DNA from: Streptomyces sp. WMMC500 | GTDB lineage: Bacteria > Actinomycetota > Actinomycetes > Streptomycetales > Streptomycetaceae | Assembly: GCF_027497195.1 (NCBI RefSeq) | Contig: NZ_CP114905.1 | Location: forward strand, 2,962,001-3,026,000 | Reading direction: 5' to 3' | DNA length: 64,000 nucleotides | The notes under the pieces: generated by a model | Seen by the model: the letters and a program-made list of their open reading frames with translations, nothing else | What the model was told of the DNA's origin: nothing | Database searches by the model: none | Program-made: the position numbers and the translations under genes | Shown here: positions 3,616-41,112 of the stretch, one piece after another | How positions within the stretch are numbered: the stretch's first letter is position 1 | Layout of the letters: each line of letters starts with the position of its first letter

Positions 3616-3746
3616 GGTGGCACCTCGAGACTTGAACGTCCTGTCATACGGCCCCCGCGGCACAGGGGCTCAATGTGGCAACTTACTAAAGCTTTACTCA
3701 GTTCCCGCCGGGGGGTGGCAGAGAGCGATGAGGCAGGATGACGAGC

Positions 3747-4331
3747 ATGTCCAACTCTCCCACCGGCGGTCCACCCCTGGCAGCCGACCCGCTGACTCGC
3801 GCGGTCCTGGAGCTTGACGAGTACGCGTCCGGTTTCGGCTGGGACCGGCCGCCGCGGCTCTTCGCCCTCGTCGACACCGCGCAGTTGCGCGCGCAGGAGC
3901 CGGGGCTCGCCCGGCGGCTGGACCTCGACACTGCCGACGGCTCCGGCGACCCGGGCGCCGGGCCCCCGGCGCAGGTTTCGTACACGCCCATCGAGCAGCA
4001 GGAACTCCCCGAGGGGCAGCCGCTCGACGAGTTCCTCGGCACCATCGCCTGGCCCGATGCGGTCGGCGGCTGCGCGCTCACGGTCGAGCGGCTGATGCTC
4101 CCGCCGGCGGCGGAGGCCGACGTGCCCGACGGTCTCGACGAGGCGGGGCTCACCGCCTGGGTCGCGGAGCACCCGCGGCGCGAGGAGGTCCGCATGACGG
4201 TCGCCGTGCTGCGCGACGGCAGCCGGGAGGCCGCGCTGCGGCTGCGCTCGAAGGACGCCCCCACCGAGGTGCTCACGGGGCCGGATCTGGTGCCGGGGCT
4301 CGCCCGGGCGCTGGCGGCGACGTTCGACTGA
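3747..4331 (+). CDS. PPA1309 family protein
   Basis: This 194-residue soluble protein matches a family found across Actinobacteria next to UPF0182 and YlbL genes; its function is unknown. Recognisable family stretches are FGWDRPPRLFALVDT near residue 30, EFLGTIAWPDAVGGCALTVE in the middle and VRMTVAVLRDG near residue 150. There is no signal peptide or membrane segment. An ATG nine bases earlier (3738) is in frame; I prefer 3747 because AGGA lies eight bases upstream and relatives begin MSN. It faces the YlbL gene and shares a hairpin with it. Confidence 0.9.
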   Translation: MSNSPTGGPPLAADPLTRAVLELDEYASGFGWDRPPRLFALVDTAQLRAQEPGLARRLDLDTADGSGDPGAGPPAQVSYTPIEQQELPEGQPLDEFLGTIAWPDAVGGCALTVERLMLPPAAEADVPDGLDEAGLTAWVAEHPRREEVRMTVAVLRDGSREAALRLRSKDAPTEVLTGPDLVPGLARALAATFD

Positions 4332-4339
4332 CCCCGTTC

Positions 4340-4361
4340 CGCGCACCGGTCCTCGTGCGCG
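4340..4361. terminator. Shared hairpin between convergent genes
   Basis: A 7-bp stem (CGCGCAC at 4340-4346 with GTGCGCG at 4355-4361) fills the 30-base gap between two converging genes and could serve both. Confidence 0.55.
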
Positions 4362-5456
4362 CTACTCCCCGCACTCGTCGAGCCGGTCGAGGTCGCCCTC
4401 GCGGATGTCCGCCAGCGCGTCCATGGCGTCGTCCATCGTCCGGATCTCGACGAGCGTGAGCCCGTCGGGTACGTCCCGGGCGGCCGTGGCGCAGTTCGCC
4501 GCCGGCGTGAGGAAGAACTTCGCGCCCTGGTCGCGGGCGCCGACGGTCTTCATGTGGATGCCGCCGATCGGCCCGACCTGGCTCTCGGTGTTGATCGTTC
4601 CGGTGCCGGCGACGAACTCCCCGCCCGTGAGGTCGCCCTTGGTGAGCTTGTCGACGATGCCGAGCGCGAACATCAGGCCCGCGCTGGGGCCGCCGACGTC
4701 GGCGAGCTTGATGTCGATCTCGAACGGGAAGGTGTGCGCGGTGCCCGCCGTGATGCCGACCATGGCCTTGCCGGGCTCCTGGTCGGACGGCCGGGTGGTG
4801 ACGGTGACCTCCTCGCCCGGCAGCTTGCGGGGGTCCTCGCCGTTCTTCTCGGCCTTCTCGGCCTTGTCCGCGGGGACGACCCGGAACGTGACCTTCTCGC
4901 CCGGCTTGCGGCTGGTGACCAGTTCGACCACGTCGCCGGGGCCGTCGACGGGCTCGCCGTCGACGGCCTTGATCACGTCACCGGCGTGCAGCGTGCCCTG
5001 CGCGGCGCCGCCCGCGACCACGGACGCCACGATCACGCGGGTGGTGAAGTCGATGCCCAGTTCCTCCAGCGCGGCGACCTTGGCGCTCTCCTGGGAGGCG
5101 GTGAACTGCTCGGCGTTCTGCTGGTCGACTTCCTCGGCGGTGCTGTCGTCCGGGTACAGCGACTCGTGCGGCACCACCGCGTCGTCGGGCGAGAGCCAGC
5201 CGTAGACGGCCTCGACGAGGTTCATCTTGTAGTCGGCGCCGGTCACACGGACCGTCGTCATGTTGAGATTGCCACTCGTCGGGTACGTCTTGCGGTCGTC
5301 GATCTGCAGCACGGGCTCGCCGTCGTGGTCCCCCAGCGTGTTCACCGTGGGCCCGGGCGACATCTCCGCGTAGGGCACGGGGATGAAGACCCCGGCGACG
5401 AGGATGGCGAGCAGCGTCACGGTGGAGGCGAGCAACGTCGCCGTGCGGCGTGGCAT
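4362..5456 (-). CDS. YlbL-type membrane-anchored PDZ/Lon-like serine protease
   Basis: The 364-residue protein has an N-terminal signal-anchor (LLASTVTLLAILVAGVFIPV), a PDZ domain around residues 150-210 (GTLHAGDVIKAVDGEPVDG) and a C-terminal S16 Lon-type protease domain. The Ser-Lys dyad is visible as Ser in GGPSAGLMFALG and Lys in GGIHMKTVGA. Family members act at the outer face of the membrane. The upstream 56-residue membrane gene ends at 5477. ATG 5456 is preceded by TACTGT six bases away, as in a leaderless transcript; a TTG at 5480 would instead overlap the upstream stop as TTGA and allow coupling. Either start may be used. Confidence 0.92.
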   Translation of the reverse strand: MPRRTATLLASTVTLLAILVAGVFIPVPYAEMSPGPTVNTLGDHDGEPVLQIDDRKTYPTSGNLNMTTVRVTGADYKMNLVEAVYGWLSPDDAVVPHESLYPDDSTAEEVDQQNAEQFTASQESAKVAALEELGIDFTTRVIVASVVAGGAAQGTLHAGDVIKAVDGEPVDGPGDVVELVTSRKPGEKVTFRVVPADKAEKAEKNGEDPRKLPGEEVTVTTRPSDQEPGKAMVGITAGTAHTFPFEIDIKLADVGGPSAGLMFALGIVDKLTKGDLTGGEFVAGTGTINTESQVGPIGGIHMKTVGARDQGAKFFLTPAANCATAARDVPDGLTLVEIRTMDDAMDALADIREGDLDRLDECGE

Positions 5457-5462
5457 AGAACG

Positions 5463-5468
5463 ACAGTA
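5463..5468 (-). promoter_or_regulatory. Possible -10 box for leaderless YlbL transcript
   Basis: TACTGT fits TANNNT and stands six bases from the ATG at 5456. No convincing -35 is seen. Confidence 0.35.
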
Positions 5469-5476
5469 CGGGACGC

Positions 5477-5647
5477 TCAAGCAGCCCCGGAACGCGAGTG
5501 GCTACGCTCCATGGCTTCCCGGAAACGGGCGTACCCCGCCAGCTCCGTGCTGTCGCCCACCTTGCGGGTGCGCGTCGCCCAACCCGCCCATATCGCGGCT
5601 GCGCCGGCCGACGCGAGGGGTATGACCAACCAGGCTATCGCTGCCAT
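5477..5647 (-). CDS. Small membrane protein, 56 residues, upstream of YlbL
   Basis: An ATG at 5647 with AGGAG seven bases upstream opens a 56-codon frame ending at TGA 5477. The product starts MAAIAWLVIPLASAGAAAIW, one hydrophobic helix, then a charged tail with TRTRKVGDSTELAGYARFRE. GC-ending codon use matches the neighbours. Its stop overlaps a TTG of the YlbL frame in the tetranucleotide TTGA, which suggests translational coupling and a shared job at the membrane. I do not recognise a named family. Confidence 0.75.
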   Translation of the reverse strand: MAAIAWLVIPLASAGAAAIWAGWATRTRKVGDSTELAGYARFREAMERSHSRSGAA

Positions 5648-5726
5648 CCCGTACTCCTAGCTGACGTGAGGTCTTTCCGATAAGCCAACGCTCACGCGGG
5701 CACGGAAGTTACGCAACTCGACAACC

Positions 5727-6206
5727 TCAACCAGCGCCTACCCATTCCTCTGTCCCGTCGGTGAACTTCTGGTGTTTCCAGATGGGAACTTCGCGCTTGA
5801 GGGTGTCGACCAGGCTACGGCAGGCCTCGAACGCCTCCGCGCGGTGGGGGCAGGAGACGGCGACGACGACGGCGAGATCCCCCACGGCCAGTTCGCCCAC
5901 GCGGTGGACGGCGGCCAGGGCCCGCACCGGATAGCCGGCCGCGACCTTCTCCGCGACCCGGCGCATCTCGGCCTCCGCGGTGGGATGGCACGAGTACCCC
6001 AGCGCGGTCACGTCCTGGACGCGCTCGGAGGCCGCCTGCCGGTCGTGGTCACGGACCGTGCCGACGAAGAGCGCCGTGCCGCCCGCGGCGGGATCGCCGA
6101 CGGCGGCGAAGACCTCGTCGAGCGACAGCGGCGCCTCGCGGACGGCGACGAGGCGCACGGGGTCCGCGGCGGCCTGCTCGCCCGGGTGCTGCGGGGTGTC
6201 TGCCAT
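5727..6206 (-). CDS. moaE: Molybdopterin synthase large subunit MoaE
   Basis: The 159-residue protein matches MoaE, which with MoaD converts precursor Z (cPMP) to molybdopterin in the cytoplasm. Family motifs seen are GGTALFVGTVRDHD near residue 40, the conserved VHRVGELAVGD, and the C-terminal KREVPIWKHQKFTDGTEEW, which carries the two catalytic-type Lys residues. The ATG at 6206 has AGGA about nine bases upstream. No moaD lies next to it; MoeZ, a partner that activates MoaD-like proteins, is encoded 26 kb away in the same window. Confidence 0.95.
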   Translation of the reverse strand: MADTPQHPGEQAAADPVRLVAVREAPLSLDEVFAAVGDPAAGGTALFVGTVRDHDRQAASERVQDVTALGYSCHPTAEAEMRRVAEKVAAGYPVRALAAVHRVGELAVGDLAVVVAVSCPHRAEAFEACRSLVDTLKREVPIWKHQKFTDGTEEWVGAG

Positions 6207-6339
6207 GCGCCCATCCTGCCGCACGGGGCCGACAACGGGCCCCGCGGGTGCCGGGGCCGGGCGGGGCGGGCGGGCGCCTGTACGGCGCCGTACGGGCCGG
6301 GGCGCGGTCCGTACGCGACGCTCCGCCGCGGCGGCCGGG

Positions 6340-7485
6340 TCAGATCTTGCCGCGTCGCGCCTTGCGCACCCGGCGTACGACCGCGGCCGTGCCCAGGAGC
6401 GCGACCGTCGCACCGGCGGCACCGGCGGCGCCCGCGGCGGCGGCGTCCTTGCGGCCCAGCCGCCGGCCCGCGACCGTGTGCCGGCCGGAGACCTCGTCCA
6501 GCAGTTCGGCGAGCACTTCCTCGTTCGTGTGCTGCGGACGCCACCCCGCGTCGTGCAAGCGGCTGCCGCTGACGACCCACGGGTACATCGTGTACGCCAG
6601 GTCGCCGGCCGGCGACGGCGTGAGCCCGAGGCGGTGCAGCCGGGAGGCGGCGCCGAGCGCGACGGCCGACGGCAGCTCCATGCGCCGGATGCCGGTCAGC
6701 TCCTCGACCTCCTCCTGCTCCAGCCACCCGTCGCAGCCGACCGCCAGTTCCCCCTCGGCCTTCTCCAGCGCCGCGAACACCAGCGCGGCGGCCAGGTCGT
6801 CGACGTGGCAGAACTGCCAGCACGGCCGGGTGCCCTTGACGACGAGCAGCCGCGGCGACTCGAAGTACCGGGTCAGCGGGGTGTCGACGCCGCCGACGAC
6901 GGCCGCGGGGCGTACGACGGTGACGTTCAGCCCGGGGTGTGCGCGGGGCGCGCGGCGGCCCAGGCGCTCCATCTCCAGCAGGTCGCCGACGCCGGTGGCC
7001 TCCTCGGTGGCGCGCAGCTCGGCGTCCTCGGCGAGCGGGACGGGGTTGTCGGGCAGGGCCCCGTAGACCATCGCGGAGGTGCAGAGGACGACGCGGCGCA
7101 CACCGGCCGCCGCGGCGGCGGTGAGCACCGTCTGCGTACCACGTACGTTGTACGCCGTACGGGCCGTGGCGTCGGTCTCCAGGTCCAGGTCGAGGGCGAG
7201 GTGCACCACGACGTCCGTGCCGCGCAGCTTGTCGGCGATCGCGGGGTCCCGCACGTCCAGCACGTGCCAGTGGGCCTCGGGCAGCTCGCCCCGCCGCTCG
7301 TCGATGGCGACGACCTGCTTGACCTCGTCGGAGGCCGCCAGTCGCTCCGTGACCAGGGCGCCGATGCCGGCCGCCGCCCCGGTGACGGCGACGACGGGGC
7401 GCCACGCGCCCGGGGCGGGCTCGTCGGCCACGGCCCCGTCGGTGGCCTTTCGCGCTGCGCGAACGTTCGGTTCCGGGGAACTCAC
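6340..7485 (-). CDS. NAD-dependent epimerase/dehydratase-like SDR protein
   Basis: The 381-residue protein is an extended short-chain dehydrogenase. The Rossmann motif VAVTGAAAGIGALV is near residue 35, and the region after it reads VVHLALDLDLETD and AYNVRGTQTVLTAAAAAG. The YxxxK catalytic pair typical of the family is not obvious: SAMVYGALPDNP is followed by no clear Lys, so substrate turnover is uncertain. A C-terminal hydrophobic Ala/Gly stretch (AAAGAAGAAGATVALLGTAAV) followed by RRVRKARR suggests membrane association. The GTG at 7485 has GGAG six bases upstream; an ATG at 7524 is an alternative. Substrate is unknown. Confidence 0.85.
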   Translation of the reverse strand: MSSPEPNVRAARKATDGAVADEPAPGAWRPVVAVTGAAAGIGALVTERLAASDEVKQVVAIDERRGELPEAHWHVLDVRDPAIADKLRGTDVVVHLALDLDLETDATARTAYNVRGTQTVLTAAAAAGVRRVVLCTSAMVYGALPDNPVPLAEDAELRATEEATGVGDLLEMERLGRRAPRAHPGLNVTVVRPAAVVGGVDTPLTRYFESPRLLVVKGTRPCWQFCHVDDLAAALVFAALEKAEGELAVGCDGWLEQEEVEELTGIRRMELPSAVALGAASRLHRLGLTPSPAGDLAYTMYPWVVSGSRLHDAGWRPQHTNEEVLAELLDEVSGRHTVAGRRLGRKDAAAAGAAGAAGATVALLGTAAVVRRVRKARRGKI

Positions 7486-7660
7486 CGGGCGGCTCCAACT
7501 GTTGTGTGCAGTAGTTCCATCCATCCTGCCCCAGCCGCACCCGCGGCGGTGGCGGCGGGCGCCAGGACATCGTGCAGGCATACGAAGCGGCATAGGGTGG
7601 AGGTAGTGGAGGGCGTACGCCGCCGGCCCGGTGCAGGCGGCCCGACGAGCCGAGGAAACC

Positions 7661-9175
7661 GTGAGTGACACCCCATTCGGATTCGGCCCCCCGAAGGAGC
7701 CGGACGACGACGGCGAGGGCGACGACAAGGGTGCCCGCAAGGGGGACGGCGACCGCAGCGGCCGGGACCCGTTCGGCTTCGGGGGCGCCGGGAGCGACCC
7801 GCAGAACCCGTTCGCGGCCCTCTTCGGCTCCCTCGGCGGCCAGGGCGGCGCCATGGGCCCGCAGGACCTGGGCGCGGCCTTCCAGCAGCTCGGCCAGATG
7901 CTGAGCTACGAGGGCGGGCCGGTCAACTGGGACATGGCAAAGGACATCGCCCGCCAGACCGTCGCCCAGGGCACGGGCGGCACCGAGGCCGGCGGCTCCG
8001 GGGGCGAGTCCAAGGACGCGAGCGTCACGGACTCCGAGCGCAAGGCGGTAGAGGAGTCCGTACGGCTGGCCGACCTGTGGCTCGACGGGGTGACGTCGCT
8101 GCCCTCCGGCTCGGGTGCCGCGCTGGCCTGGAGCCGCGCGGAGTGGGTCGAGGCGACGCTGCCGGTGTGGAAGGAGCTCGTCGACCCGGTCGCCGAGCGC
8201 GTGGGTGCCGCCATGGGCGGTGTGCTGCCGGAGGAGATGCAGGCCATGGCCGGCCCGCTCATCGGCATGATGCGCTCGATGGGGGGCGCGATGTTCGGCA
8301 CCCAGATCGGGCACGCCGTGGGCGTGCTGGCGGGCGAGGTGGTCGGCTCCACCGACATCGGGCTGCCGCTGGGGCCGGCGGGCAAGGCGGCACTGCTGCC
8401 GGTGAACATCAAGAGGTTCAGCGAGGGCCTGGGCGTACCGCAGGACGAGGTACGGCTGTACCTGGCGCTGCGCGAGGCGGCGCACCAGCGGCTCTTCGCC
8501 CACGTGCCGTGGCTGCGCTCGCACCTGTTCGGCGCCGTCGAGGGCTACGCGCGCGGCATCAAGGTGGACACGTCCAAGCTGGAGGACCTGGTCGGCCAGG
8601 TCGACATCGAGCGTCCCGAGCAGTTGCAGGAGGCGCTGCAGCAGGGCATGTTCCAGCCCGAGGACACCCCCGAGCAGAAGGCGGCCCTGGCCCGGCTGGA
8701 GACGGCGCTCGCGCTGGTCGAGGGCTGGGTGGACGCGGTCGTGCACGCCGCCGCCGAGCCGCACCTGGACGCCCCGTCGCTGAACTCGCTGCGCGAGGCG
8801 CTGCGTCGCAGGCGCGCCACGGGCGGCCCCGCGGAGCAGACGTTCGCGACCCTCATCGGGCTGGAGCTGCGGCCGCGGCGGCTGCGGGACGCCTCGCGGC
8901 TGTGGGCGTCCCTCGCGGACGCGCGCGGAGTGGACGGCCGGGACGCGCTGTGGGCGCACCCCGACATGCTGCCGACGGCGAGCGACCTGGACGACCCGGA
9001 CGGGTTCGTGCACAGCGAGCAGGCGGACTTCTCGGAGCTGGAGAAGATGCTGGGCTCGGCCGGCTCCGCCGGCGACGAGAAGGGCGGGCCGGACGAGATG
9101 GGCCGCGAGGACGTGCCGGACGAGAAGGACGGGCAGGACGGGCAGGACGGCGGCAAGGGCGACACGGACAGGTGA
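7661..9175 (+). CDS. DUF2342 / zinc-dependent metalloprotease-like protein
   Basis: The 504-residue protein belongs to the actinobacterial family often labelled zinc-dependent metalloprotease or coenzyme F420 biosynthesis-associated protein. The N-terminal 70 residues and the C-terminal 50 are charged low-complexity. The core has VNWDMAKDIARQ near residue 90, GTQIGHAVGVLAGEVVGSTD near 210 and LALREAAHQRLFAHVPWL near 270; the ExxH in EAAH is the suspected metal site, but it is not a full HExxH, so protease activity is inference. GTG 7661 has GAGGAA five bases upstream. The stop overlaps the Nudix start by three bases (GTGA). Confidence 0.85.
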   Translation: MSDTPFGFGPPKEPDDDGEGDDKGARKGDGDRSGRDPFGFGGAGSDPQNPFAALFGSLGGQGGAMGPQDLGAAFQQLGQMLSYEGGPVNWDMAKDIARQTVAQGTGGTEAGGSGGESKDASVTDSERKAVEESVRLADLWLDGVTSLPSGSGAALAWSRAEWVEATLPVWKELVDPVAERVGAAMGGVLPEEMQAMAGPLIGMMRSMGGAMFGTQIGHAVGVLAGEVVGSTDIGLPLGPAGKAALLPVNIKRFSEGLGVPQDEVRLYLALREAAHQRLFAHVPWLRSHLFGAVEGYARGIKVDTSKLEDLVGQVDIERPEQLQEALQQGMFQPEDTPEQKAALARLETALALVEGWVDAVVHAAAEPHLDAPSLNSLREALRRRRATGGPAEQTFATLIGLELRPRRLRDASRLWASLADARGVDGRDALWAHPDMLPTASDLDDPDGFVHSEQADFSELEKMLGSAGSAGDEKGGPDEMGREDVPDEKDGQDGQDGGKGDTDR

Positions 9176-31714: not shown

Positions 31715-31769
31715 GTACGTCGTGCGTGGTACGTCGTGCGTGGTACGTCGTGCGTGGTACGTCGTGCGT
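31715..31769. repeat. Four tandem copies of a 14-bp unit
   Basis: GTACGTCGTGCGTG is repeated at 31715, 31729, 31743 and 31757 (last copy lacks the final base match). The array ends at the moeZ stop codon and has no reading-frame meaning. Confidence 0.9.
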
Positions 31770-32947
31770 CAGTAGATCGGCTTCTCCGGCTCGATCTGGT
31801 TCACCCAGCCGACCACGCCGCCGCCCACGTGCACCGCGTCCGCGAAGCCCGCCGACTTCAGCACCGCCAGGACTTCCGCGGACCGGACACCCGTCTTGCA
31901 GTGCAAGACGATCTTCTTGTCCTGCGGCAGCCCCTCCAGGGCGTTGCCCATCAGGAACTCGTCCTTCGGGACCAGCCGGGCGCCGGGGATCGCGACGATC
32001 TCGTACTCGTTGGGCTCGCGGACGTCGATGATGTCGATGTTCTCGCCCTCGTCGATCCACTCCTTGAGCTGCTTCGGAGTGATCGTGGAGCCGGCCGCGG
32101 CCTCCTGCGCCTCGTCGGAGACGACGCCGCAGAACGCCTCGTAGTCGATCAGCTCGGTGACGGTCGGGTTCTCGCCGCAGACCGCGCAGTCCGGGTCCTT
32201 GCGGACCTTGACCTGGCGGTACTGCATCTCCAGGGCGTCGTAGATCATCAGCCGGCCGACCAGCGGGTCGCCGATGCCGGCGAGCAGCTTGATGGCCTCG
32301 TTGACCTGGATCGAGCCGATCGACGCGCACAGCACGCCCAGCACGCCGCCCTCGGCGCAGCTCGGCACCATGCCGGGCGGCGGGGGCTCGGGGTACAGGC
32401 AGCGGTAGCACGGGCCGTGCTCGGCCCAGAAGACCGACGCCTGGCCGTCGAAGCGGTAGATGGAGCCCCACACGTAGGGCTTGCCGAGCAGTACGCACGC
32501 GTCGTTGACCAGGTAGCGGGTGGCGAAGTTGTCCGTGCCGTCGACGATCAGGTCGTACTCCGCGAACATCTCCATCACGTTCGAGGAGTCCAGCCGCTCC
32601 TGGTGGAGCCGCACCGTCACGTACGGGTTGATGCCCAGCACCGTGTCGCGGGCGGACTCGGCCTTGGAGCGGCCGATGTCGGCCTGGCTGTGAATGATCT
32701 GGCGCTGCAGGTTCGACTCGTCCACCTCGTCGAACTCGACGATGCCGAGCGTGCCCACACCCGCCGCCGCCAGGTACATCAGCGCCGGCGAGCCGAGACC
32801 GCCGGCGCCCACACAGAGCACCTTGGCGTTCTTCAGCCGCTTCTGGCCCGCCATCCCGACATCCGGGATGATCAGGTGGCGCGAGTACCTGCGGACCTCG
32901 TCGACGGAGAGCTCGGGGGCGGGCTCGACCAGCGGTGGCAGCGACAC
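31769..32947 (-). CDS. moeZ: Adenylyltransferase/sulfurtransferase MoeZ
   Basis: The 392-residue protein has an N-terminal ThiF/MoeB domain (VGAGGLGSPALMYLAAAG near residue 45, FDEVDESNLQRQ near 75, zinc cysteines in PCYRCLYP and CAVCG) and a C-terminal rhodanese domain with active-site Cys in LHCKTGVRS near 350. MoeZ activates small sulfur carrier proteins by adenylation and thiocarboxylation for molybdopterin, cysteine and thiopeptide-type pathways; in this window it could serve MoaE's partner MoaD. GTG 32947 has GGAG five bases upstream. The four-gene polysaccharide operon ends 61 bases upstream on the same strand. Confidence 0.97.
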   Translation of the reverse strand: MSLPPLVEPAPELSVDEVRRYSRHLIIPDVGMAGQKRLKNAKVLCVGAGGLGSPALMYLAAAGVGTLGIVEFDEVDESNLQRQIIHSQADIGRSKAESARDTVLGINPYVTVRLHQERLDSSNVMEMFAEYDLIVDGTDNFATRYLVNDACVLLGKPYVWGSIYRFDGQASVFWAEHGPCYRCLYPEPPPPGMVPSCAEGGVLGVLCASIGSIQVNEAIKLLAGIGDPLVGRLMIYDALEMQYRQVKVRKDPDCAVCGENPTVTELIDYEAFCGVVSDEAQEAAAGSTITPKQLKEWIDEGENIDIIDVREPNEYEIVAIPGARLVPKDEFLMGNALEGLPQDKKIVLHCKTGVRSAEVLAVLKSAGFADAVHVGGGVVGWVNQIEPEKPIY

Positions 32948-33008: not shown

Positions 33009-33812
33009 TCATTCCGAGACACCCTGTCCGAGACGCGAGACGAGGTCGTCCCAGTAGCCGGGCAGGGCCTCCCAGCCGGGCCGGTCGGTGAAGAACACCG
33101 AGGCCGCACCCTGCCAGCGGGCGACCCGCATGGCCTCGTCGAGATGCGTCGGCGGGACGCCGTGGACCAGATGGCAGAACCGCTCCGCGGGGTGCTCCGC
33201 GGTCCACTCGGCGACCTGCGACCAGCGGTAGTCCGCCCACGGGCCCGCGAAGGTGACGAGCTGGTCGGCGGCCTCGGCGTAGCCGGCGTACGGGTGTGTG
33301 CCTACGCCGAGGACGACGTGGGCCCGCGGGCAGAGCGCGCCGAGGGTCGACGCCAGGCGCCGGACCTCCGGCAGCCGGTCCCGGTCGGCGGGGCAGCGGC
33401 CGAGGTAGAACCCGTCGACGCGGTACCACTCCAGGAACCGGTGGGCGTCGCTGATCAGCTCGCCGAAGGGGCGTCGGCCGTGGCCCAGGTCGAGCCTGCC
33501 GAGGGTGCGCACCCGCGCCGACTTCAGCCGGCCCGCAGCCTCCAGGCAGTGCGGGTCGGGGCGGGCGCCGGGCCCGCCGGCGACGTCGAGCACCGTCCAG
33601 TGGACGGCACCGGCCGCGGCGGGCCGGGTCAGCTCGCCCCACTCGACGGGGGCGACGAGCGGGTGCGCGTAGCCGGGGACGGCGAGGCGGAGGGGGGTCT
33701 CGGCCGGCTGCGCCGGTAGCTGCCGCCGGTCGGTCCCCGGCTCGGGCAGGTCGCGCAGCACCGCGGCGGCACCGGCCGGTGCGCCGGTCCCGTCAGCTCT
33801 CAGATCCGGCAT
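33009..33812 (-). CDS. Spherulin-4-like (GH135-type) protein
   Basis: The 267-residue protein resembles the spherulation-specific family 4, a TIM-barrel family that includes fungal Sph3 (GH135), which cleaves galactosamine-containing polysaccharide. Visible parts are LRLAVPGYAHPLV near residue 45, WTVLDVAGGPG near 75, RTLGRLDLGHG near 105 and WYRVDGFYLGR near 130. Many relatives have DE where this one has GR after DGFYL, so catalysis may be lost or shifted. No signal peptide is seen, which is odd for a polysaccharide hydrolase. The start overlaps the epimerase stop by 13 bases, and it is the last gene of the operon. Confidence 0.8.
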   Translation of the reverse strand: MPDLRADGTGAPAGAAAVLRDLPEPGTDRRQLPAQPAETPLRLAVPGYAHPLVAPVEWGELTRPAAAGAVHWTVLDVAGGPGARPDPHCLEAAGRLKSARVRTLGRLDLGHGRRPFGELISDAHRFLEWYRVDGFYLGRCPADRDRLPEVRRLASTLGALCPRAHVVLGVGTHPYAGYAEAADQLVTFAGPWADYRWSQVAEWTAEHPAERFCHLVHGVPPTHLDEAMRVARWQGAASVFFTDRPGWEALPGYWDDLVSRLGQGVSE

Positions 33813-34867
33813 GCCGCCTCCATCCAGATATCCGCAAGGCTCTCCTCGATTCCGATCCGGGGCCGCCAGCCGAGGCGGTCCCGCGCCGTCCTGATGTCCG
33901 CCTGCTGCCAGGCGCCGCACCCGTCCGGATACGGATACGCCGCGGTGACCGCCGGCGGTTCCGTGCCGGGGCCGCCGTTCGTGCCGTGGCCGGGCCCGTG
34001 GCCCGGTCCGTGGCCGTGGCCGTGGCCCATGCCGTGGCTCATCCCGTGCCCCGGGCCGCCGTGTCCGAGGCCGTGTCCGGCGCCCGCGGGCTGCGGGATC
34101 CGGCCGGTCAGCGCCGTGTCGTACTCGTGCAACTGCCCGCCGTACCCCGCGACCCGCGCCAGCGCCGCCGCCGCGTCCCGCAGCCGCACCGCGCGCCCGC
34201 CGCCGATGTTCACCACACCCTGCGCCGCCGACAGCGACGCGGCGTGCACCGCCCGCGCCACGTCCCGTACGTCCACGAAGTCCCGCTGCGCGCCGAGCCC
34301 GCCGAGCTTCAGCTCGCCGTCGCCCTGCTGCATCGCCCGCCGCAGCGCCTCCGCCAGCCGGCCGAGCGGGGAGCCCGCCGGGGTGCCGGGGCCCGCGGGC
34401 GAGAACACCCGCAGCACGATCGCGTCCAGGCCGGAGCCGAGCACCAGCTCGGTCGCGGCCAGCTTGCTCACCCCGTACGGACCGCCGGGGCGCGGCAGCG
34501 CGTCCTCGGCCGTCGACGAGCCGGCCGGCGAGGGCCCGTACTCCGAGGCGCAGCCCACGTGCACCAGCCGCGCCGAGCAACTGCTGCGCCGCATGGCCTC
34601 GCAGAGGGTGGCGACGGCGACGGTGTTGTGCCGGGTCAGGTCCCGGGCGCCGCCGCGGGTGGTGCCGGCGCAGTTGACGACGACGCCCGGGTGCACGGCG
34701 TCGAGGAACCGGGTCAGCGCGCCGGGGCTGCCGGACGACAGGTCGAACCGCACGTCCGCGTCGTCGCCGCGGCCGAGCGCGGTGAGCTGCACGGCGGGGT
34801 CGGCGAGCAGGCGGTCTGCGACGTAGCGGCCGACGAAGCCGGTGCCGCCGATGAGCAACACCCTCAT
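33800..34867 (-). CDS. NAD-dependent epimerase/dehydratase with His/Gly-rich insert
   Basis: The 355-residue extended SDR has GGTGFVGRYVADRLL at residue 8, the catalytic-type Ser and YGVSK near 145, and LGWRP near the C-terminus, all typical of sugar-nucleotide 4-epimerases and reductases. Between about residues 263 and 296 a Gly/His tract (GHGMSHGMGHGHGHGPGHG) interrupts the substrate domain and may bind metal. It overlaps the upstream membrane gene as ATGA and the downstream spherulin-like gene by 13 bases. A role in making the sugar nucleotide used by the operon's glycosyltransferase is inferred. Confidence 0.88.
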   Translation of the reverse strand: MRVLLIGGTGFVGRYVADRLLADPAVQLTALGRGDDADVRFDLSSGSPGALTRFLDAVHPGVVVNCAGTTRGGARDLTRHNTVAVATLCEAMRRSSCSARLVHVGCASEYGPSPAGSSTAEDALPRPGGPYGVSKLAATELVLGSGLDAIVLRVFSPAGPGTPAGSPLGRLAEALRRAMQQGDGELKLGGLGAQRDFVDVRDVARAVHAASLSAAQGVVNIGGGRAVRLRDAAAALARVAGYGGQLHEYDTALTGRIPQPAGAGHGLGHGGPGHGMSHGMGHGHGHGPGHGPGHGTNGGPGTEPPAVTAAYPYPDGCGAWQQADIRTARDRLGWRPRIGIEESLADIWMEAACRI

Positions 34868-36483
34868 CGGGCACCCCCGTCGTGCGGGGAGGGCGGGGCC
34901 AGTGGTGGTGCGGTCATCTCGGTGTGCTCCTTGCGATGAGCTGAGGCTCGGGTGAGGGCGCGGCCGGCGAACGCCAGCAGCGCGAGCGCGGCTCCGCCGC
35001 AGGCGACCGCGGGCACGGCGGCCATGCGGAAACCTGCGGGGCCGGCGACCAGCAGCTCGACCGGACGGCCGAGCACGGCCAGCCCGGGAACCCGGGCGGC
35101 CAGGACCAGCAGCAGCGCCGTCACCTGCGCGGCGCAGGCGGCGGCGACGCCGTACGCGGCGGCCCGGGGGAAGCCGTGCACGGTGAGCAGCCGGGCGAGG
35201 AAGAGCAGGGCGCCGAGCGCGCAGGCGGCGGCAGGGGCGCAGGGTGCGCTGCCGGCGTCGGGCTGGTGCGCCGGGTCCGCGAGCCGCCCGACGACGGGTT
35301 CGGCACCCGCGGCGGCGAGCTGCAACGCGACGAGGACGGCCACCACGGCGACGACGGCGGCGGCGAGCGGCGGGCGGACCCGGGCGCGGAACTCGGCCAG
35401 GTCCCGGCTGTCCCGCAGGCTGCCGCGGGCCCGCGCGGCGAACCAGCGGGCGACGGCCGCGGCGGGCAGCACGGCGGCGGTGAGCCCGGCGAGGGCGGCG
35501 GCGGTGGCGTACGACACGACCGGCGCGCGCGAGACGCCGGTGGCGCCGCCGAGCAGCTCGCCGAGGAACCAGTCCCCGTACACCGCGTACGCCAGCAGCC
35601 ACCCCACGGCGAGCCCGGCCCCGGCGGGCAGCCCCGCCCCGACCCTGAGGGGCCCCCGCTGCAACCCGAGCACCAGCGCGACCACGGCCCAGGCGACGCC
35701 GGCGGCGGTCAGGGCGGCCTGCGCCCGGCCGGACAGCCCGGTGGCGGCGAGCACGAGCAGCCCGCCGCCGAGCGGCGTCAGGTGGGCGAGCGGGGCGAGC
35801 GGCGTACGGGGCCGGGGGCCGCCCGGCGGCGGGGGCCCGGCGCCCGGCCCGCGGGTCCGTGCGTACATCTCCTCGGCGAGCGAGAACACGTCCCGGTGCC
35901 GATACCGCACGGCCGTCCGGTCGGTGACGCCGTGCGCCTCCAGCCCGGCGGCGATCTCCAGCGGATCGACGGCCCGCCGGCACAGCTCCCGGTGCCGGTA
36001 CATGATCCCGCGCACGGGATCGGCGAACCCGCGCCGGGGGCGGCCGGCCGCCGCCGGAGGGCGCGCCGGCGCGGACCCGCCGACGGCGGGGGGCGTCGGC
36101 TCCGCCGCGGGGGGCGGGGAAGTGGAGTCGGGCTCAGCGGCGGCTGAGGAGCGGGCGCGCGGCGAAGCCGCCGCGCCATCGCCCGCGGACCCCGTGTCGA
36201 CGGACGGGTCGACAGCTCGCTCCGGCGCAGCCGGAGTAGCCGCCGACCGGGCGGCCGGGTCCGGCGGCGTTCCGGCAGCGCCTCCCGCGCCCCGCCGCAG
36301 AGCCGCGCCGGCGGCAGGCCGCGGGTGGAGGGACGTTACGGCAACGGGGGCCGGGCGGGGGCCGAAGGCTTCGTCCAGGGCCTCCGCCAGGTCCTCCGCC
36401 GGTGTCGCCGGGGACGGCTCGTGCGTGTCCGGCCCGGGTGGCCGCGTCCGCGGCTCCGGGTTCGCTCTCGGGACCTCCGTCAT
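34864..36483 (-). CDS. Multi-pass membrane protein of the polysaccharide operon
   Basis: The 539-residue protein has a disordered Pro/Ala/Glu-rich N-terminus of about 150 residues, a short conserved-looking segment (VRGIMYRHRELCRRAVDPLE, then AVRYRHRDVFSLAEEMYAR), then about eight hydrophobic helices between 230 and 520. I do not recognise a named family; the place in the operon suggests an export or polymerase partner, as PelG is for PelF, but the helix count is below the usual 12. Start ATG 36483 and stop 34864 both overlap neighbours as ATGA, so translation is coupled along the operon. Confidence 0.8.
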   Translation of the reverse strand: MTEVPRANPEPRTRPPGPDTHEPSPATPAEDLAEALDEAFGPRPAPVAVTSLHPRPAAGAALRRGAGGAAGTPPDPAARSAATPAAPERAVDPSVDTGSAGDGAAASPRARSSAAAEPDSTSPPPAAEPTPPAVGGSAPARPPAAAGRPRRGFADPVRGIMYRHRELCRRAVDPLEIAAGLEAHGVTDRTAVRYRHRDVFSLAEEMYARTRGPGAGPPPPGGPRPRTPLAPLAHLTPLGGGLLVLAATGLSGRAQAALTAAGVAWAVVALVLGLQRGPLRVGAGLPAGAGLAVGWLLAYAVYGDWFLGELLGGATGVSRAPVVSYATAAALAGLTAAVLPAAAVARWFAARARGSLRDSRDLAEFRARVRPPLAAAVVAVVAVLVALQLAAAGAEPVVGRLADPAHQPDAGSAPCAPAAACALGALLFLARLLTVHGFPRAAAYGVAAACAAQVTALLLVLAARVPGLAVLGRPVELLVAGPAGFRMAAVPAVACGGAALALLAFAGRALTRASAHRKEHTEMTAPPLAPPSPHDGGAR

Positions 36484-38117
36484 CTGTCCGCCCCCTCAAG
36501 AACGGGGCGGACGCCCGCCGCCGGCGCAGCCGCCAGGTGTGCCTCCGGGGGGAGCGCGAAGGGGTGCGGGGCGGCGGTCGCCGCCGCTGGGGAAGGGCTG
36601 CGGGAGGCCAGCTCCAGGTAGATGCGCCCGAAGGCCGCCACGTTCTGCTCCGCCGTGAACAGCTCCACCGCCCGTGCCCGCGCCGCCGCGCCCAGCCGCG
36701 CCCGGCGCGCCGGGTCGCGGAGCAGCGCCAGGCAGGCATCCGCCAGCGCCCGCGGGTTCCGGGGCGGGACGACCAGGCCCGTGCCGCCGATAACCTCCCG
36801 TACCGCGCCGACGTCCGTCGACACCGTCGCCCGGCCGCAGAACATCGCCTCCACCAGGCCCACCGGGAAGCCCACCACGACGCTGGAGAGCACGGCGACC
36901 CCGCCCGTCGCGTACGCCGCCGCCCTGTCCGGCAGGGCAGGGTCGCCGATCTCCTCGAACGACACCGGGCTCGCGCCCACCGCGTGCGCGTCCACGGCCC
37001 CGTCAGGGAAGAGCCGGGCGGCCAGCGCGCGGCAGTGGTCGCGGTAGCCCGCGTGGGCGGCGGCCGGGGGCTCCGTCTCCACCACGACGAGGCGGGCGGC
37101 CGGCTCCTCCCTGCGGATCTCCGCGAACGCGTGCAGCAGGGCGACGAGGTCGCGGGCGGGTTCGATCCGGCCGGCCCAGACCAGCGTCCTGCGGTCCTCG
37201 CCGGCCACCGGCGCGTCGCCGACCTCCGCGAACCGCGCCGCGTCCATGCCCGGGTACACCGTCCGCAGCCTGCGCCCCTCCGCGCCCAGGCGCAGCGCCC
37301 AGCGCCGCGCGTGCGCGTTGCCCGGGGTGACGAGAGCCGCCTTGCCGTACGCCTCCGCCGCCAGCCGGCGGTGGAAGGCCGCCAGCAGCGCCCGTACGGC
37401 CACGGACCCGCCGGCGTGCGCCCCCCGGCCGCCCTCCAGGTAGTGCCGTCGCAGCCGCACCCCGTACTCCGTCACCAGCAGCGGCGTGCCGAAGAACCGC
37501 CGCGCGAGCAGTCCCGGCAGCACCGCGGGACCGCCGGACAGCGCGTGGCACAGGCCGACCCCGGCCAGCCCGGCGTCCGGCCCGTACCACCCCGCCGCCA
37601 ACGGCCGCAGCTCCCGGTCCAGACGCGCCGCCACCGCGAGCAGCTCCGCGACGCGCGCGCCCCGCACCACCGGGGACGCGCCCGGCGCCCGGCACGCCCG
37701 CTCCAGGATCCGCACCGCCTGCTCCGCGCGCAGCGCGCGCCCCGGCCCGCCCGCGTCCCTGGCCAGCTCCGCGAGCCCGTACAGCCCGGAAGCGAAACGG
37801 TCCTGCCCGGACTCCGCCCCGGCCCCGCCGGCCGCCAGCGCGCCCGCCAACTCCGCGAAGTGCTCGGCGAATCGGCGCCGGCCGGCGCGCCCGTAGCGGC
37901 GTTCGCCCGGCGCCGGGCGGCCCAGCGGCGCGACGTGCACCGCGCGTACCTGCGGCGGCAGCGGCACGAGGTCCGCCGCCTCCTGTGCCGCATCCACGGC
38001 AAACGCGAAGACGTCGAACTCATGGTGCGCAAGACCGCGTACGAGCCGGTCGCACCACCCCGGCGACTCGCCCGCGGCAAACGGGAACCCGCCCTCCGCG
38101 AGAAGGCCGATGCGCAA
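36480..38117 (-). CDS. PelF-like GT4 glycosyltransferase (DUF3492-type N-terminus)
   Basis: The 545-residue GT-B glycosyltransferase begins RIGLLAEGGFPFAAGE and SPGWCDRLVRGLAHHEFDV, matching the DUF3492 N-terminal domain found in PelF-type enzymes. The C-terminal half has LVWAGRIEPARDLVALLHAF, then GFPVGLVEAMFCGRATVSTD, the EX7E-type donor site of GT4. PelF uses UDP-GalNAc to build a cationic exopolysaccharide; the donor here is unknown. The TTG at 38117 is preferred because GGGGGTG lies six bases upstream and relatives start at this point; a GTG at 38126 or 38210 is possible. First gene of a four-gene operon. Confidence 0.85.
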   Translation of the reverse strand: MRIGLLAEGGFPFAAGESPGWCDRLVRGLAHHEFDVFAFAVDAAQEAADLVPLPPQVRAVHVAPLGRPAPGERRYGRAGRRRFAEHFAELAGALAAGGAGAESGQDRFASGLYGLAELARDAGGPGRALRAEQAVRILERACRAPGASPVVRGARVAELLAVAARLDRELRPLAAGWYGPDAGLAGVGLCHALSGGPAVLPGLLARRFFGTPLLVTEYGVRLRRHYLEGGRGAHAGGSVAVRALLAAFHRRLAAEAYGKAALVTPGNAHARRWALRLGAEGRRLRTVYPGMDAARFAEVGDAPVAGEDRRTLVWAGRIEPARDLVALLHAFAEIRREEPAARLVVVETEPPAAAHAGYRDHCRALAARLFPDGAVDAHAVGASPVSFEEIGDPALPDRAAAYATGGVAVLSSVVVGFPVGLVEAMFCGRATVSTDVGAVREVIGGTGLVVPPRNPRALADACLALLRDPARRARLGAAARARAVELFTAEQNVAAFGRIYLELASRSPSPAAATAAPHPFALPPEAHLAAAPAAGVRPVLEGADR

Positions 38118-38267: not shown

Positions 38268-40061
38268 TCAGCCGCGCGGGAACGGCCAGGGGTTGGGCCT
38301 GCAGGTGGCGCCGTCCGTCGACAGGTACTTCGTCTGCTGCATCATCACCGGCGCGAGCGCGCCGTCCCGCTCGCACCCGACGTGCCCGTGCCCGAGCCGG
38401 TGGCCGACCTCGTGGTTGATGAGCATCTGCCGGTAGGCGTGGATGTCGTCGCCGTAGGTCTTCGAACCCTGCGCCCACCGGAAGGCGTTGATCATCACGC
38501 GCTCGGTGGCGGCGGAGTCGCAGGACACGTCCTCGTCGCCGGTGTCGAGACCCGACTTGGCGCACCACTCGTCCGTGGTACCCGGGCTGGCCAGAGTGAT
38601 GACGAACACCGACTCCTCGCCGGGCCCCACCCGCTCGAAGGTGCGGTCGCCCTGCCCGCCCCAACTGCGCTTGTCGTTGAGCGTCTTGTGCACGGCGGAC
38701 GCGAACAGCTCGCCGTCGAGCGGCAGTCCGTCCTCGACGTCCACGCGGTACGCGACGACCTCGCCGCGGCCGGGCGCCTTGTCGCTCCCGGGGACCGCGG
38801 TGAGCTTGCCGGAGCCGGTGAGGTTGCGGCTGAGGGGGTACGTGGCCGCCATCTTCTCGGTGTACGTGGCGGGGACGGCCCGCGCGTCCTCGTCGGGCGC
38901 CGAGCCGCCTTTGCCGGCCGGGCCCGCGCGGTCGCCGGAGCGGGAGGCGGCGTCGTCGGCGGCGTCACGCTGCTTGCGCGCGTCGGCGGCCGCGGCGTCG
39001 GCGCGCTTGGCGCGGCCGTCGGAGACCTGGCCGGCGATGGCGGCGGCGAGCGCGCACGTCACCACGGCGGCGGCGACGCCGGTGGCGACCCGGGCGCGGT
39101 TGGCCGCGCGCCGCCGCGGGCGGCGGTGGCCGCCGCCGGTGGACTGCAGGGCGGCGGCGAACTCGTCGGGCGGCCCGTCGCCGTCGTCGCCCGGCGGCCG
39201 GCCGCGGTCGTCGCCCGCGGGAGCCGGCCCCGGCACGTCGCCGGGGCGCGCGGCGGGCTCGGCGGTGCGGCCGGGCCCGGGCCCGTCGAAGGCGTCGAGG
39301 TAGTCCTGTCGTACGGGCGTGGGCGTGGCGGCGACGGTGGCGGCGCCGAGGCCGCGGCCGGGCTGCTCGTACGGCGGCGCGCCCCAGCCGCCGCCCGGCT
39401 CCCGGTGCTCGGGGTGGCCGAGGGGGTGCTCGCCGGTGTCGTCCATGGGCGCGTGCGTGCCGGGAGGGCGGGGGCCGCGGGGCGCGCGGGGCATGCCGTG
39501 CGCGGGCGGCGCCCCGGGCGCGGTGACGCGCCGCATCCCGCCGGTGTCGCCGACCCGCGGCACGGCGCCCGTGTCCCCGACCGGCCGCATCGACCCGGTG
39601 TCGGTGACCCGCGGCAGCGGTCCGGTCCCGCCGGCCCGGGGCACCGGACCCGTTCCGGAGACCCGGGGGATGGACCCCGTCCCGGAGACCCGCGGGATCG
39701 GCCCCGTCCCGGAGACCCGCGGCACCGGACCCGTGTCGCCGAACCGCGGCATCGGGCCCGTGCCCATGACCGTCCGGCCGGTGCCCGGCCCCGGCCCGCC
39801 CCCGGGCACCCGGGGCACCGGGCCCGTGTCCGTCACTCGCGGGATCGGACCCGTGTCCGTCACCCGCGGCACCGGGCCCGTGTCCGTCACCCGCGGGATC
39901 GGGCCCGTGTCGCTGATCCGCGGGATCGGCCCGGTGTCGCCCCGCCGCGGCAGCGGCGGACGCGCGCCTGACCCGGGTCCGGACCCGGACCCGGGTGCGG
40001 ATCCGCCACCGCCGTCCCGCGCCTGCTTCTTGCCCCTGCCGGCCGCGCTGTGCCTGCCCAC
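38268..40061 (-). CDS. DUF3152 membrane-anchored protein with repeat-rich cytoplasmic tail
   Basis: The 597-residue type II membrane protein has a disordered N-terminal half containing 14 repeats of a 9-residue unit (consensus VTDTGPIPR), one membrane helix near 317-339 (VATGVAAAVVTCALAAAIAG), a coiled Ala/Asp/Arg segment, and a C-terminal DUF3152 domain. That domain ends with NHEVGHRLGHGHVGC near residue 550, an HExxH-like zinc site of a metzincin-type protease, so an extracellular peptidase role is plausible. GTG 40061 lies nine bases after the hydrolase stop, with GGGAG inside the hydrolase end. The same gene neighbours moeZ in mycobacteria. Confidence 0.88.
   Translation of the reverse strand: MGRHSAAGRGKKQARDGGGGSAPGSGSGPGSGARPPLPRRGDTGPIPRISDTGPIPRVTDTGPVPRVTDTGPIPRVTDTGPVPRVPGGGPGPGTGRTVMGTGPMPRFGDTGPVPRVSGTGPIPRVSGTGSIPRVSGTGPVPRAGGTGPLPRVTDTGSMRPVGDTGAVPRVGDTGGMRRVTAPGAPPAHGMPRAPRGPRPPGTHAPMDDTGEHPLGHPEHREPGGGWGAPPYEQPGRGLGAATVAATPTPVRQDYLDAFDGPGPGRTAEPAARPGDVPGPAPAGDDRGRPPGDDGDGPPDEFAAALQSTGGGHRRPRRRAANRARVATGVAAAVVTCALAAAIAGQVSDGRAKRADAAAADARKQRDAADDAASRSGDRAGPAGKGGSAPDEDARAVPATYTEKMAATYPLSRNLTGSGKLTAVPGSDKAPGRGEVVAYRVDVEDGLPLDGELFASAVHKTLNDKRSWGGQGDRTFERVGPGEESVFVITLASPGTTDEWCAKSGLDTGDEDVSCDSAATERVMINAFRWAQGSKTYGDDIHAYRQMLINHEVGHRLGHGHVGCERDGALAPVMMQQTKYLSTDGATCRPNPWPFPRG
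39529..39944 (-). repeat. Coding repeat tract: 14 units of a 27-bp/9-residue repeat
   Basis: Units read (V/I)(T/S/G)(D/G)TGP(I/V/M/L)PR; five near-identical units come first, then a Gly/Pro spacer, then nine more divergent ones. DNA copies share long identical blocks such as GACACGGGCCCG, so copy number could vary between strains. Confidence 0.85.
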
Positions 40062-40069
40062 CGTGTGTG

Positions 40070-41077
40070 TCAGCTCCCGCCGGGGCTCGCGTCGGCAGCC
40101 CCTGTCTCGTACTCGTCCAACAGCTCGGTGAACGCTCTGGCCACCACTTCCGGGTACTCCATCATGGCCACGTGCCCCGCCGCCGGCAGGGCCAGCAGCC
40201 GCGAGTTGCGGAACGCGGTCTTCGCCCGCCGCGCCATCCTGAACGATACGAGTTGGTCGCGACCGCCGTAGACGAGCAGCGTAGGCGCCAGCACCCGCTC
40301 GGCAAGCCGCCACAGGGAATGCTGCCCGCCCAGCGCGTACGCGCCGACGACCCCGCGCGCTGACCGCTCCAGGGCGTCCCAGTGGTACGGCAGCCGCATC
40401 CGCCTGGCGTACTCGCGCGCGTGCTCGGCGAAGCCCTCCGGGCTGACCCGGGCCGGGTCGCCGTAGCAGAGGCCCAGTACGGCGCGGGTGCGCTGCTCCG
40501 CGGTCCAGTCCCGGGTAAGCCGCTTGAAGAGCGCGGTGACGCCGGGCACGGCAAGCAGCGCGGTGGGCACCGCGGAGCGCTGCGGGGGCAGTTCGGGCAG
40601 CGCCGGGGAGACGAGGGTGAGGGTGCGCACCAGGTCGGGACGGAGTGCCGCGACGCGGGTGACGATGGTGCCGCCCAGCGAGTTGCCGAAGAGGTGTACG
40701 GGGCCGCGGTCGCCGGCGTCGAGGTAGCGGATGACGGCGCGGGCGTGGCCGGAGAGCGAGTAGTCGCCGTCGTCGGGGGGCGGGGAGTCGCCGAAGCCGG
40801 GGAGGTCGACGGCGTCGGCCGCGACGCGGTCGGCGAGCAGGGGGCCGAGGCCGGTCCAGTTCAGCGAGGAGCCGCCGAGCCCGTGGACGTACACCGCGGG
40901 CGGCAGTCCCGCGCGGGCCGGCGGGTGGCCGCGGACGGCGAGCGTGAGTCCGGGGAGCGTCACCTGCCGTCGCGCGACACCGTCCCCGCCTGCGGCGGGA
41001 GGGGGCGGCGCGGTCCCGGGCGGGGCTTCCGCCGGGGGTGCTGCGTCGCCCGCCAGCGAGGGCTCTGTCGACGGCAT
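40070..41077 (-). CDS. Alpha/beta-fold hydrolase
   Basis: The 335-residue protein has the fold's HGLGGSSLNW oxyanion region near residue 70, nucleophile GNSLGG near 132, Asp in VYGGRDQLVS near 270 and His in AAGHVAMME near 300. The first 40 residues are Pro/Ala-rich. No signal peptide is seen. The substrate is unknown. ATG 41077 lacks a ribosome site but is the first transcribed base if the promoter at 41084-41112 is used. The DUF3152 gene follows after nine bases. Confidence 0.9.
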   Translation of the reverse strand: MPSTEPSLAGDAAPPAEAPPGTAPPPPAAGGDGVARRQVTLPGLTLAVRGHPPARAGLPPAVYVHGLGGSSLNWTGLGPLLADRVAADAVDLPGFGDSPPPDDGDYSLSGHARAVIRYLDAGDRGPVHLFGNSLGGTIVTRVAALRPDLVRTLTLVSPALPELPPQRSAVPTALLAVPGVTALFKRLTRDWTAEQRTRAVLGLCYGDPARVSPEGFAEHAREYARRMRLPYHWDALERSARGVVGAYALGGQHSLWRLAERVLAPTLLVYGGRDQLVSFRMARRAKTAFRNSRLLALPAAGHVAMMEYPEVVARAFTELLDEYETGAADASPGGS

Positions 41078-41083
41078 GGGGCA

Positions 41084-41112
41084 ATGTTACGAGACAGTCA
41101 CGCTGTGGTTCA
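41084..41112 (-). promoter_or_regulatory. Promoter of the hydrolase-DUF3152 pair, probably leaderless
   Basis: TGAACC (41112-41107) and TAACAT (41089-41084) are 17 bases apart; the ATG at 41077 is six bases from the -10, so the transcript would begin at the start codon. Confidence 0.6.

Follow-up and report, generated by a model that had tools for sequence, protein, structure and literature searches.

A moeZ-linked four-gene operon of Streptomyces as a probable reduced derivative of an exopolysaccharide operon

Does an operon that resembles a Pel or galactosaminogalactan (GAG) system in its gene content still make such a polymer? The question is raised by four minus-strand genes at positions 33009-38117 of a 64,000-nucleotide stretch of the Streptomyces sp. 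WMMC500 genome (the window; G000:C1:2962001-3026000, part of a single 8.6-Mb contig). They encode a GT4-type glycosyltransferase (GT) with a DUF3492 domain, a polytopic membrane protein, an extended short-chain dehydrogenase/reductase (SDR) and a Spherulin-4 protein. An earlier note, made from the letters alone, had described a Pel/GAG-like system with a working hydrolase and an aminopolysaccharide role. Descent from such operons is upheld here; the hydrolase and the aminopolysaccharide role are not, as the GH135 carboxylates are lost, a signal peptide is absent, the GalE and PelF cut-offs are missed and no PelG is found in the genome. On balance, we favour the reading that a fuller exopolysaccharide operon of GAG/Pel-like type has been reduced and re-purposed to give the four genes, whose products most likely form a membrane-bound complex that no longer makes such a polymer. 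The dehydratase, nucleotidyltransferase and GH114 enzyme of the deepest moeZ-linked copy are absent from it, and at the catalytic positions of all three enzymes the changes are fixed.

The four reading frames, their order and the overlaps of 4, 4 and 13 bases between successive genes were confirmed from the coordinates, and the DUF3492 GT, the epimerase-type SDR and the spherulin-4 protein proposed in the earlier note all match their profiles above cut-off (84.2, 130 and 71.6 bits, respectively). A genome scan with the GT gave 60 loci, of which 57 (L026-L082, the core loci) belong to Streptomyces or Streptantibioticus, and three (L083-L085) are distant, weak GT matches. Weaker spherulin matches led to operons of like build elsewhere in Streptomyces and in other actinobacteria (the sister loci). 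Core loci were found by searching with the window peptides and sister loci by the spherulin profile, and neither set was selected on active-site residues. For the residue tallies, duplicate rows were dropped and broken or unanchored reading frames omitted, leaving 52 GT, 48 SDR and 45 spherulin rows from the 57 core loci; the sister rows contain near copies (L140/L149 and L148/L155).

The SDR (355 aa, 33800-34867, minus strand) was assigned from its reading frame, its match to the Epimerase profile (130 bits, cut-off 20.9) and its nearest solved structures, which are GDP-4-keto-6-deoxy-hexose reductases; the best of these is 2pk3, a GDP-6-deoxy-D-lyxo-4-hexulose reductase (E 3.4e-21). An identity as GalE was rejected (TIGR01179, 35 bits against a cut-off of 262.3). 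Compared with 2pk3, the window SDR carries a Cys in place of the catalytic-position Ser and has an extra His/Gly-rich insertion. The Cys (Cys106, 34550-34552, minus strand) lies four residues before the Tyr of an EYG motif, and Tyr131 and Lys135 are retained. The catalytic identity of the Ser follows GalE numbering, with which the 2pk3 alignment agrees. In the residue tally the position is Ser in all 19 sister rows and in three moeZ-linked loci from outside the genus (L169, L170 and L174), and Cys in all 48 core rows, every one of which keeps the Tyr and Lys. The insertion is an in-frame, low-complexity segment rich in His, Gly and Pro at residues 261-301 (33965-34087). SDR length ranges from 305 to 359 aa across loci, and the segment may be a site of variable insertion.

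The GT-fold protein (545 aa, 36480-38117, minus strand) has a TTG start, with an alternative GTG start possible at 38210, and was recognised from its reading frame and from matches to DUF3492 (cut-off 23.3) and to GT4 domains (68.9 bits). It scores 79 bits against the PelF equivalog of NCBIfam (NF038011), below the cut-off of 100, and is the only DUF3492 match in the genome. A loop that reads GGVSxWCD in the sister operons is altered: its second Gly, conserved in all 29 sister rows, gives way to Asp or Glu in all 52 core rows, and the window likewise has Glu17 (38067-38069, minus strand) there; the Val of GGV is replaced by Ala, Ser, Pro or Asn in every core row. The N-domain His of GT4 enzymes ('TEHG') is important for catalysis. 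In an alignment with the inositol-phosphate GT 7qsg it falls on a His, and it is present in 29/29 sister rows and L169; the window has Tyr218 at this position (37464-37466, minus strand), as do all 52 core rows and six other moeZ-linked rows (five without L175, a repeat of L067). Alignment and tally also place Val415 (36873-36875, minus strand) at the first Glu of the EX7E motif, a residue lost only in the window and in L026 and L027, both of which have Ala.

The Spherulin-4/GH135-fold protein (267 aa, 33009-33812, minus strand), described here from profile, alignment and hydropathy, matches the Spherulin4 profile above its cut-off of 30.2 and aligns to the Sph3 structure 5c5g (E 4e-6). Its structural model is weak, with a predicted local distance difference test score (pLDDT) of 59.4, and its two best matches in the PDB are Sph3 structures (5c5g and 5d6t; E ~1e-4, TM-score 0.43). 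The accessible portion of PMC10485009 gives Asp166, Glu167 and Glu222 as the putative catalytic residues of Sph3; that of PMC12054363 names the pair Asp196/Glu222, the first number being probably a misprint. From the 5c5g alignment and the tally, Asp166-Glu167 correspond to Gly138-Arg139 of the window protein (33396-33401, minus strand) and Glu222 to Ala189 (33246-33248, minus strand). An active GH135 hydrolase was rejected for the window, there being Gly, Arg and Ala at the catalytic carboxylate positions. The Glu222 position is Glu in 32/32 sister rows, L169 and L174, Asp in L170, and has been lost in 44 of the 45 core rows. Asp166 is kept in all 32 sister rows and is lost in 13 of the 45 core rows and in the window. 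Glu167 is already Gln (26) or Arg (6) in the sister rows and hence is not diagnostic. The core spherulin is predicted to be non-hydrolytic.

No signal peptide was found in the 45 core spherulins, the highest 19-residue mean hydropathy within their first 60 residues being 1.07. Sph3 and PelA, as described in the portions available of the work on them, act outside the cytosol. Sister spherulins at L116-L135, with Asp and Glu intact, also seem by eye to be without a signal peptide, so that the GH135-like enzymes of actinobacterial operons may commonly be cytosolic. Among the spherulin orthologs, some aromatic and His positions are invariant. In public records some of these orthologs (P0008, P0031, P0034 and others) are labelled 'phage tail protein', a misleading annotation.

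The membrane protein (539 aa, 34864-36483, minus strand) was delimited by its reading frame, its model and its relation to the sister-operon protein, and has no Pfam or NCBIfam match. It is predicted to begin with about 150 mostly low-confidence residues, followed by a conserved helical domain (about 151-212) and then about eight hydrophobic helices (model, mean pLDDT 70.7). Structure prediction had been suggested in the earlier note; the model was obtained, but a Foldseek search of it against the PDB gave no match (best E 0.34). The protein is related to its sister-operon counterparts (hhalign against five proteins: probability 99.9%, E 4.2e-35, 327 columns), and full-length sister membrane proteins share the N-terminal helical domain of the core protein. 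PelG was rejected as its identity, there being no PF16933 match in the protein or in the window's genome (G000). Across 11 genomes, PF16933 gave only partial matches in three (model positions 322-445), with only G191 over the cut-off (30.9 bits); the Thermotoga maritima control was positive.

Among 20 loci from members of the family outside the genus, operon genes stand beside moeZ in eight (L169-L176). The fullest, L169, has the GT, the membrane protein, a LegB-like dehydratase, a nucleotidyltransferase, the SDR, the spherulin, a GH114 protein (275.8 bits), a 617-residue open reading frame, perhaps not a gene, for which Pfam gives no match, and moeZ. The catalytic Asp and Glu of its spherulin are intact, as are the His and GGV of its GT. 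L170 has the SDR and spherulin; a search of its 15 kb with the L169 proteins found no GT or membrane protein, and its genome has no DUF3492 match.

Tree reconstructions place the moeZ-linked rows together on one side of a branch for each enzyme: 46 rows in the spherulin tree (84 rows, support 100/96), 22 in the SDR tree (41 rows, support 100/99) and 22 in the GT tree (51 rows, support 99/98). The trees were midpoint-rooted, core rows had been thinned manually before those of the SDR and GT were built, and long-branch warnings apply to L153 (SDR tree) and to L153 and L152 (GT tree). In the spherulin tree the rows labelled core and moeZ-linked interleave, with two changes counted per label, and the 46 together make up one group; L175 is identical to L067 in this tree and is counted under both labels. 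L169 is the deepest moeZ-linked member in all three trees, L170 comes next in those of the spherulin and SDR, and L174 and the remainder follow. As read from these trees, the moeZ-linked group evidently derives from actinobacterial operons of the GT, membrane protein and spherulin type by common descent. The copies form a graded evolutionary series that starts with L169 and leads by way of L170 and L174 to Streptomyces; along it accessory enzymes are lost, the catalytic residues of the three linked enzymes change, and the operon is kept.

The sister operons show what the putative ancestral type contains. Across 20 sister loci (L136-L155) the spherulin is present in all, a DUF3492-type GT in 18, a membrane protein recognised by the core profile in 11 (that of L143 was recognised additionally, by position and alignment) and an SDR scoring >150 bits in 11. 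At L136 and L143, the only two scanned for these genes, the SDR is preceded by a dehydratase of the GDP_Man_Dehyd type and a nucleotidyltransferase. GH114 proteins occur at L147 (290.6 bits) and L152 (271.2 bits), and the latter locus also encodes a true GalE (337 bits, cut-off 262.3). Four large upstream proteins were scanned for the Agd3 deacetylase, giving weak matches below the cut-off of 27.6 in L147 (18.2 bits) and L138 (21.0 and 15.5 bits) and none in L136 and L137. The sister dehydratase lies near LegB (TIGR04180, cut-off 475), scoring 452.2 bits in L143 and 458.3 bits in L153. Pairs of LegB-like dehydratase and SDR were noted in L143 (4836-7587), L136 (8705-11796), L153 (7808-10568) and L169 (4545-7524), with the nucleotidyltransferase matched in L143, L136 and L169. 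In some of these operons the donor supplied may therefore be a 6-deoxy amino sugar and not UDP-GalNAc, which would give an unusual polymer. The sister operons are of the type described by Bamford et al. 2020 (PMC7229062), an actinobacterial operon with a cytosolic GT, a multi-spanning membrane protein, GH114, an Agd3-like deacetylase and, in some, spherulin-4. What is known is this ancestral operon type; what is new is the moeZ-linked derivative. A literature search, judged largely by titles and with subscription literature mostly outside its coverage, found no description of a moeZ-linked operon, nor any under SCO5179-SCO5182, which we take to be the S. coelicolor names of these genes.

By comparison with the PMC7229062 operons, with which it shares a homologous cytosolic GT, a multi-spanning membrane protein and spherulin-4, the window operon is without the deacetylase and GH114, has changed catalytic residues and, in most of the Streptomyces sampled, occupies a fixed position at moeZ. 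The fungal GAG cluster (uge3, sph3, gtb3, ega3 and agd3), as set out in the accessible text of PMC4817252, likewise has a GT4 enzyme, an epimerase-family SDR and a spherulin-4 fold, but the window locus has no GalE-type epimerase, GH135 catalytic residues or Ega3/Agd3 gene, and its GT and membrane parts are separate proteins. The Gram-positive pelDEADAFG operons, going by the part of PMC7112168 available, share a PelF-like GT and also have SDR domains, some with degenerate active sites. A profile scan of the four operon proteins and the two flanking ones found no member of the PelD, PelE, PelA or PelG families, and none of the same six proteins matched Agd3. The profile check proposed in the earlier note gave the DUF3492 and Spherulin4 matches, both present as predicted, and failed to give PelG. 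By the features tested, the window operon is neither Pel nor GAG.

The window locus has no GH114, and the single one found in this genome lies at G000:C1:4008577-4009206 (162.7 bits). The best LegB-type match in the genome scores 154.4 bits, compared with 430-458 bits for dehydratases of that type. With one DUF3492 protein, no PelG, one distant GH114 and so low a LegB score, no second operon of this type is therefore seen in the strain. Best LegB-type matches in G013, G229, G263 and G299 are likewise all <166 bits. G290, which has only a core-type spherulin, carries a LegB-type dehydratase elsewhere in its genome (429.8 bits).

The operon is widespread and its genes are coupled beyond chance. 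The nearest named relative at the locus is Streptomyces aculeolatus (GT 84% identical). A moeZ match lies within the locus at 49 of the 57 core loci, and these have the membrane protein and SDR in 49/49 and the spherulin in 47/49. In all 46 loci where both genes were anchored by script (one spherulin end, in L058, was wrongly placed by the gene-boundary script), a spherulin start codon falls within the SDR gene to give an overlap of 13 bp, and the 4-bp overlap between GT and membrane-protein genes recurs in 41 of 48. The window's overlap between membrane-protein and SDR genes is not conserved, being found in 3 of 41 loci; the remaining 38 have gaps of 45-667 bp, in which no conserved small gene was seen by eye (13 loci). 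The SDR/spherulin and GT/membrane-protein couplings are old.

In a survey of 394 genomes of the class, 331 of which had no spherulin match and are not listed by name, 37 of the 40 listed genomes of the window's genus have a core-type spherulin (>300 bits), and weaker matches are seen in 5 of the 354 genomes outside it. A family draw of 121 genomes gave core-type spherulins (at least 290 bits) in 25 of 28 listed genus genomes and in 30 of 93 others, from seven other genera; a few further matches are split in two pieces, and four match-less genomes are unlisted. Genus labels follow the classification used, and at least one genome placed in another genus (G443) is apparently Streptomyces according to its depositor. 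The insertion is thus a feature of the family and not of some narrow lineage, and the 'lineage-specific insertion' of the earlier note holds only in part, since the moeZ-linked locus is spread over most sampled Streptomyces and several related genera.

Ratios of nonsynonymous to synonymous substitution (dN/dS) were calculated for 17 disjoint pairs from the 39 loci having all five genes. They span 0-0.19 in moeZ and 0.03-0.19 in the SDR, reach higher in the spherulin (0.12-0.43) and GT (0.12-0.42), and are highest in the membrane protein (0.26-1.00); the values for the window's trio, in the same order of genes, are 0.09-0.14, 0.10-0.14, 0.35-0.42, 0.30-0.46 and 0.44-0.50, respectively. The operon frames are under selection, and the SDR is the most strictly held, as constrained as moeZ. 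The spherulin is dispensable. Large internal deletions in L052 (13743-13978) and L061 (13610-13791) leave its start and C-terminal codons, with the SDR (frame open), GT and membrane protein remaining, and a core-type spherulin was not found in G191, G272 and G315, which keep the membrane protein.

The favoured reading, a re-purposed derivative, can be drawn as a sequence of steps. A fuller exopolysaccharide operon would once have stood at the moeZ locus of the family ancestor; toward Streptomyces its accessory enzymes would have been lost and the active sites of the GT, SDR and spherulin altered. The GT-fold protein and the spherulin barrel would then no longer polymerise or cleave a GalNAc polymer; attached to the membrane protein on its cytosolic side, they would serve as subunits that are either non-catalytic or altered. 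The SDR, with its dinucleotide fold, retained Tyr/Lys and Cys for Ser, would bind a nucleotide sugar and be the functional centre, either as a modified enzyme or as a nucleotide-sugar sensor. Because the genes are coupled, the GT, SDR and spherulin are suggested to form a complex with the membrane protein. A more far-reaching version, which we hold only tentatively, has a complete synthase operon turned, one enzyme after another, into a pseudo-enzyme complex that is anchored in the membrane and kept by most Streptomyces; its GT fold, glycosidase barrel and Cys-bearing SDR would jointly sense a nucleotide sugar or provide a scaffold for it.

Several points weigh against a re-purposed complex. 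Gene coupling is the single line of evidence for complex formation, the membrane protein having no structural match and the spherulin model being poor. The donor-side motif is mostly kept in the core GTs (first Glu of EX7E in 50/52, second in 52/52, Lys in 45/52), and many of these may still transfer sugar. Of the 45 core spherulins, 32 retain Asp166 and one carries Glu at position 222. Cys may sometimes stand for Ser in SDRs. Degenerate SDR domains are also found in the Gram-positive PelD of streptococci, clostridia and actinobacteria (PMC7112168, in the part available), and Streptococcus intermedius produces Pel despite one (PMC12345266, likewise in part); a changed SDR alone therefore does not mean that the polymer is lost.

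The last of these points also favours the best-surviving alternative, which we judge possible although rather unlikely: that a glycan or glycolipid continues to be produced, but by an operon of altered specificity. Here the GT would use another donor or acceptor, the Cys-bearing SDR would make an unusual nucleotide sugar, the membrane protein would export or anchor the product, and the dead barrel would bind the chain. The intact C-terminal donor motifs of most core GTs, the strong constraint on the SDR, the invariant aromatic and His residues of the spherulin, which suit a sugar-binding site, and the LegB-type dehydratase of G290 are in keeping with this. Set against it are the GT4 His and second loop Gly, changed in 52/52 core rows, together with the EX7E Glu missing from the window clade, and the disappearance of the supply genes of the L169 type, for which the window's genome offers only its 154.4-bit match.

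That the operon is a decaying relic without function, retained because decay is slow, is improbable. The missing EX7E Glu of the window clade, the loss of Asp166 in the window and 13 core rows, deletion of the spherulin in two loci and a weakly constrained membrane protein (dN/dS up to 1.00) would suit it, but frames are open in 45-52 core loci, the SDR is constrained like moeZ, and the 13-bp overlap is maintained throughout. The replacement residues, Tyr in the GT and Cys in the SDR, are invariant in the core, and the changes are therefore not random decay. Least probable is the earlier note's working Pel/GAG-type aminopolysaccharide system with an active spherulin hydrolase, which the DUF3492, Spherulin4 and SDR matches and descent from GAG-like operons would favour, and against which stand the missed PelF and galE cut-offs, the lack of PelG in the genome, the changed catalytic residues, a spherulin without a signal peptide and a locus without deacetylase or GH114.

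The annotation of these genes invites one to see a 'spherulation-specific' hydrolase beside a PelF-like synthase, a reading against which the present findings caution. Should their product be a sensor or scaffold, most Streptomyces species would carry an unstudied module of surface biology or envelope control; should it be an altered synthase, an unknown glycan would await discovery in Streptomyces. Were the pseudo-enzyme reading true, it would be a case of concerted conversion of a pathway and not of one protein.

The operon lies between moeZ and a DUF3152 gene, as the earlier note had placed it, and both flanks were matched by profile. The same-strand downstream neighbour moeZ (31769-32935, minus strand; NCBIfam profile, 740.2 bits, cut-off 647) begins about 75 bp past the spherulin stop; across loci the spherulin-to-moeZ gap has a median of 75 bp and a range of 73-191, with 70-90 bp in 36 of 45. 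A link to thiosugar chemistry driven by MoeZ would be a speculation suggested by adjacency and the SDR Cys. DUF3152 (188.6 bits, cut-off 25.1) was detected on the far side of the operon in 51 of the 57 core loci, about 6 kb further away in 17. One such locus, L029, has an oligopeptide-type ABC transporter (binding protein, two permeases and ATPases; 3461-8787) between DUF3152 and the GT. In the window, the translation of the DUF3152 reading frame (38268-41084, minus strand) ends with a metalloprotease-like 'NHEVGHRLGHGH' motif, preceded by 'TGPVPRV'-like repeats.

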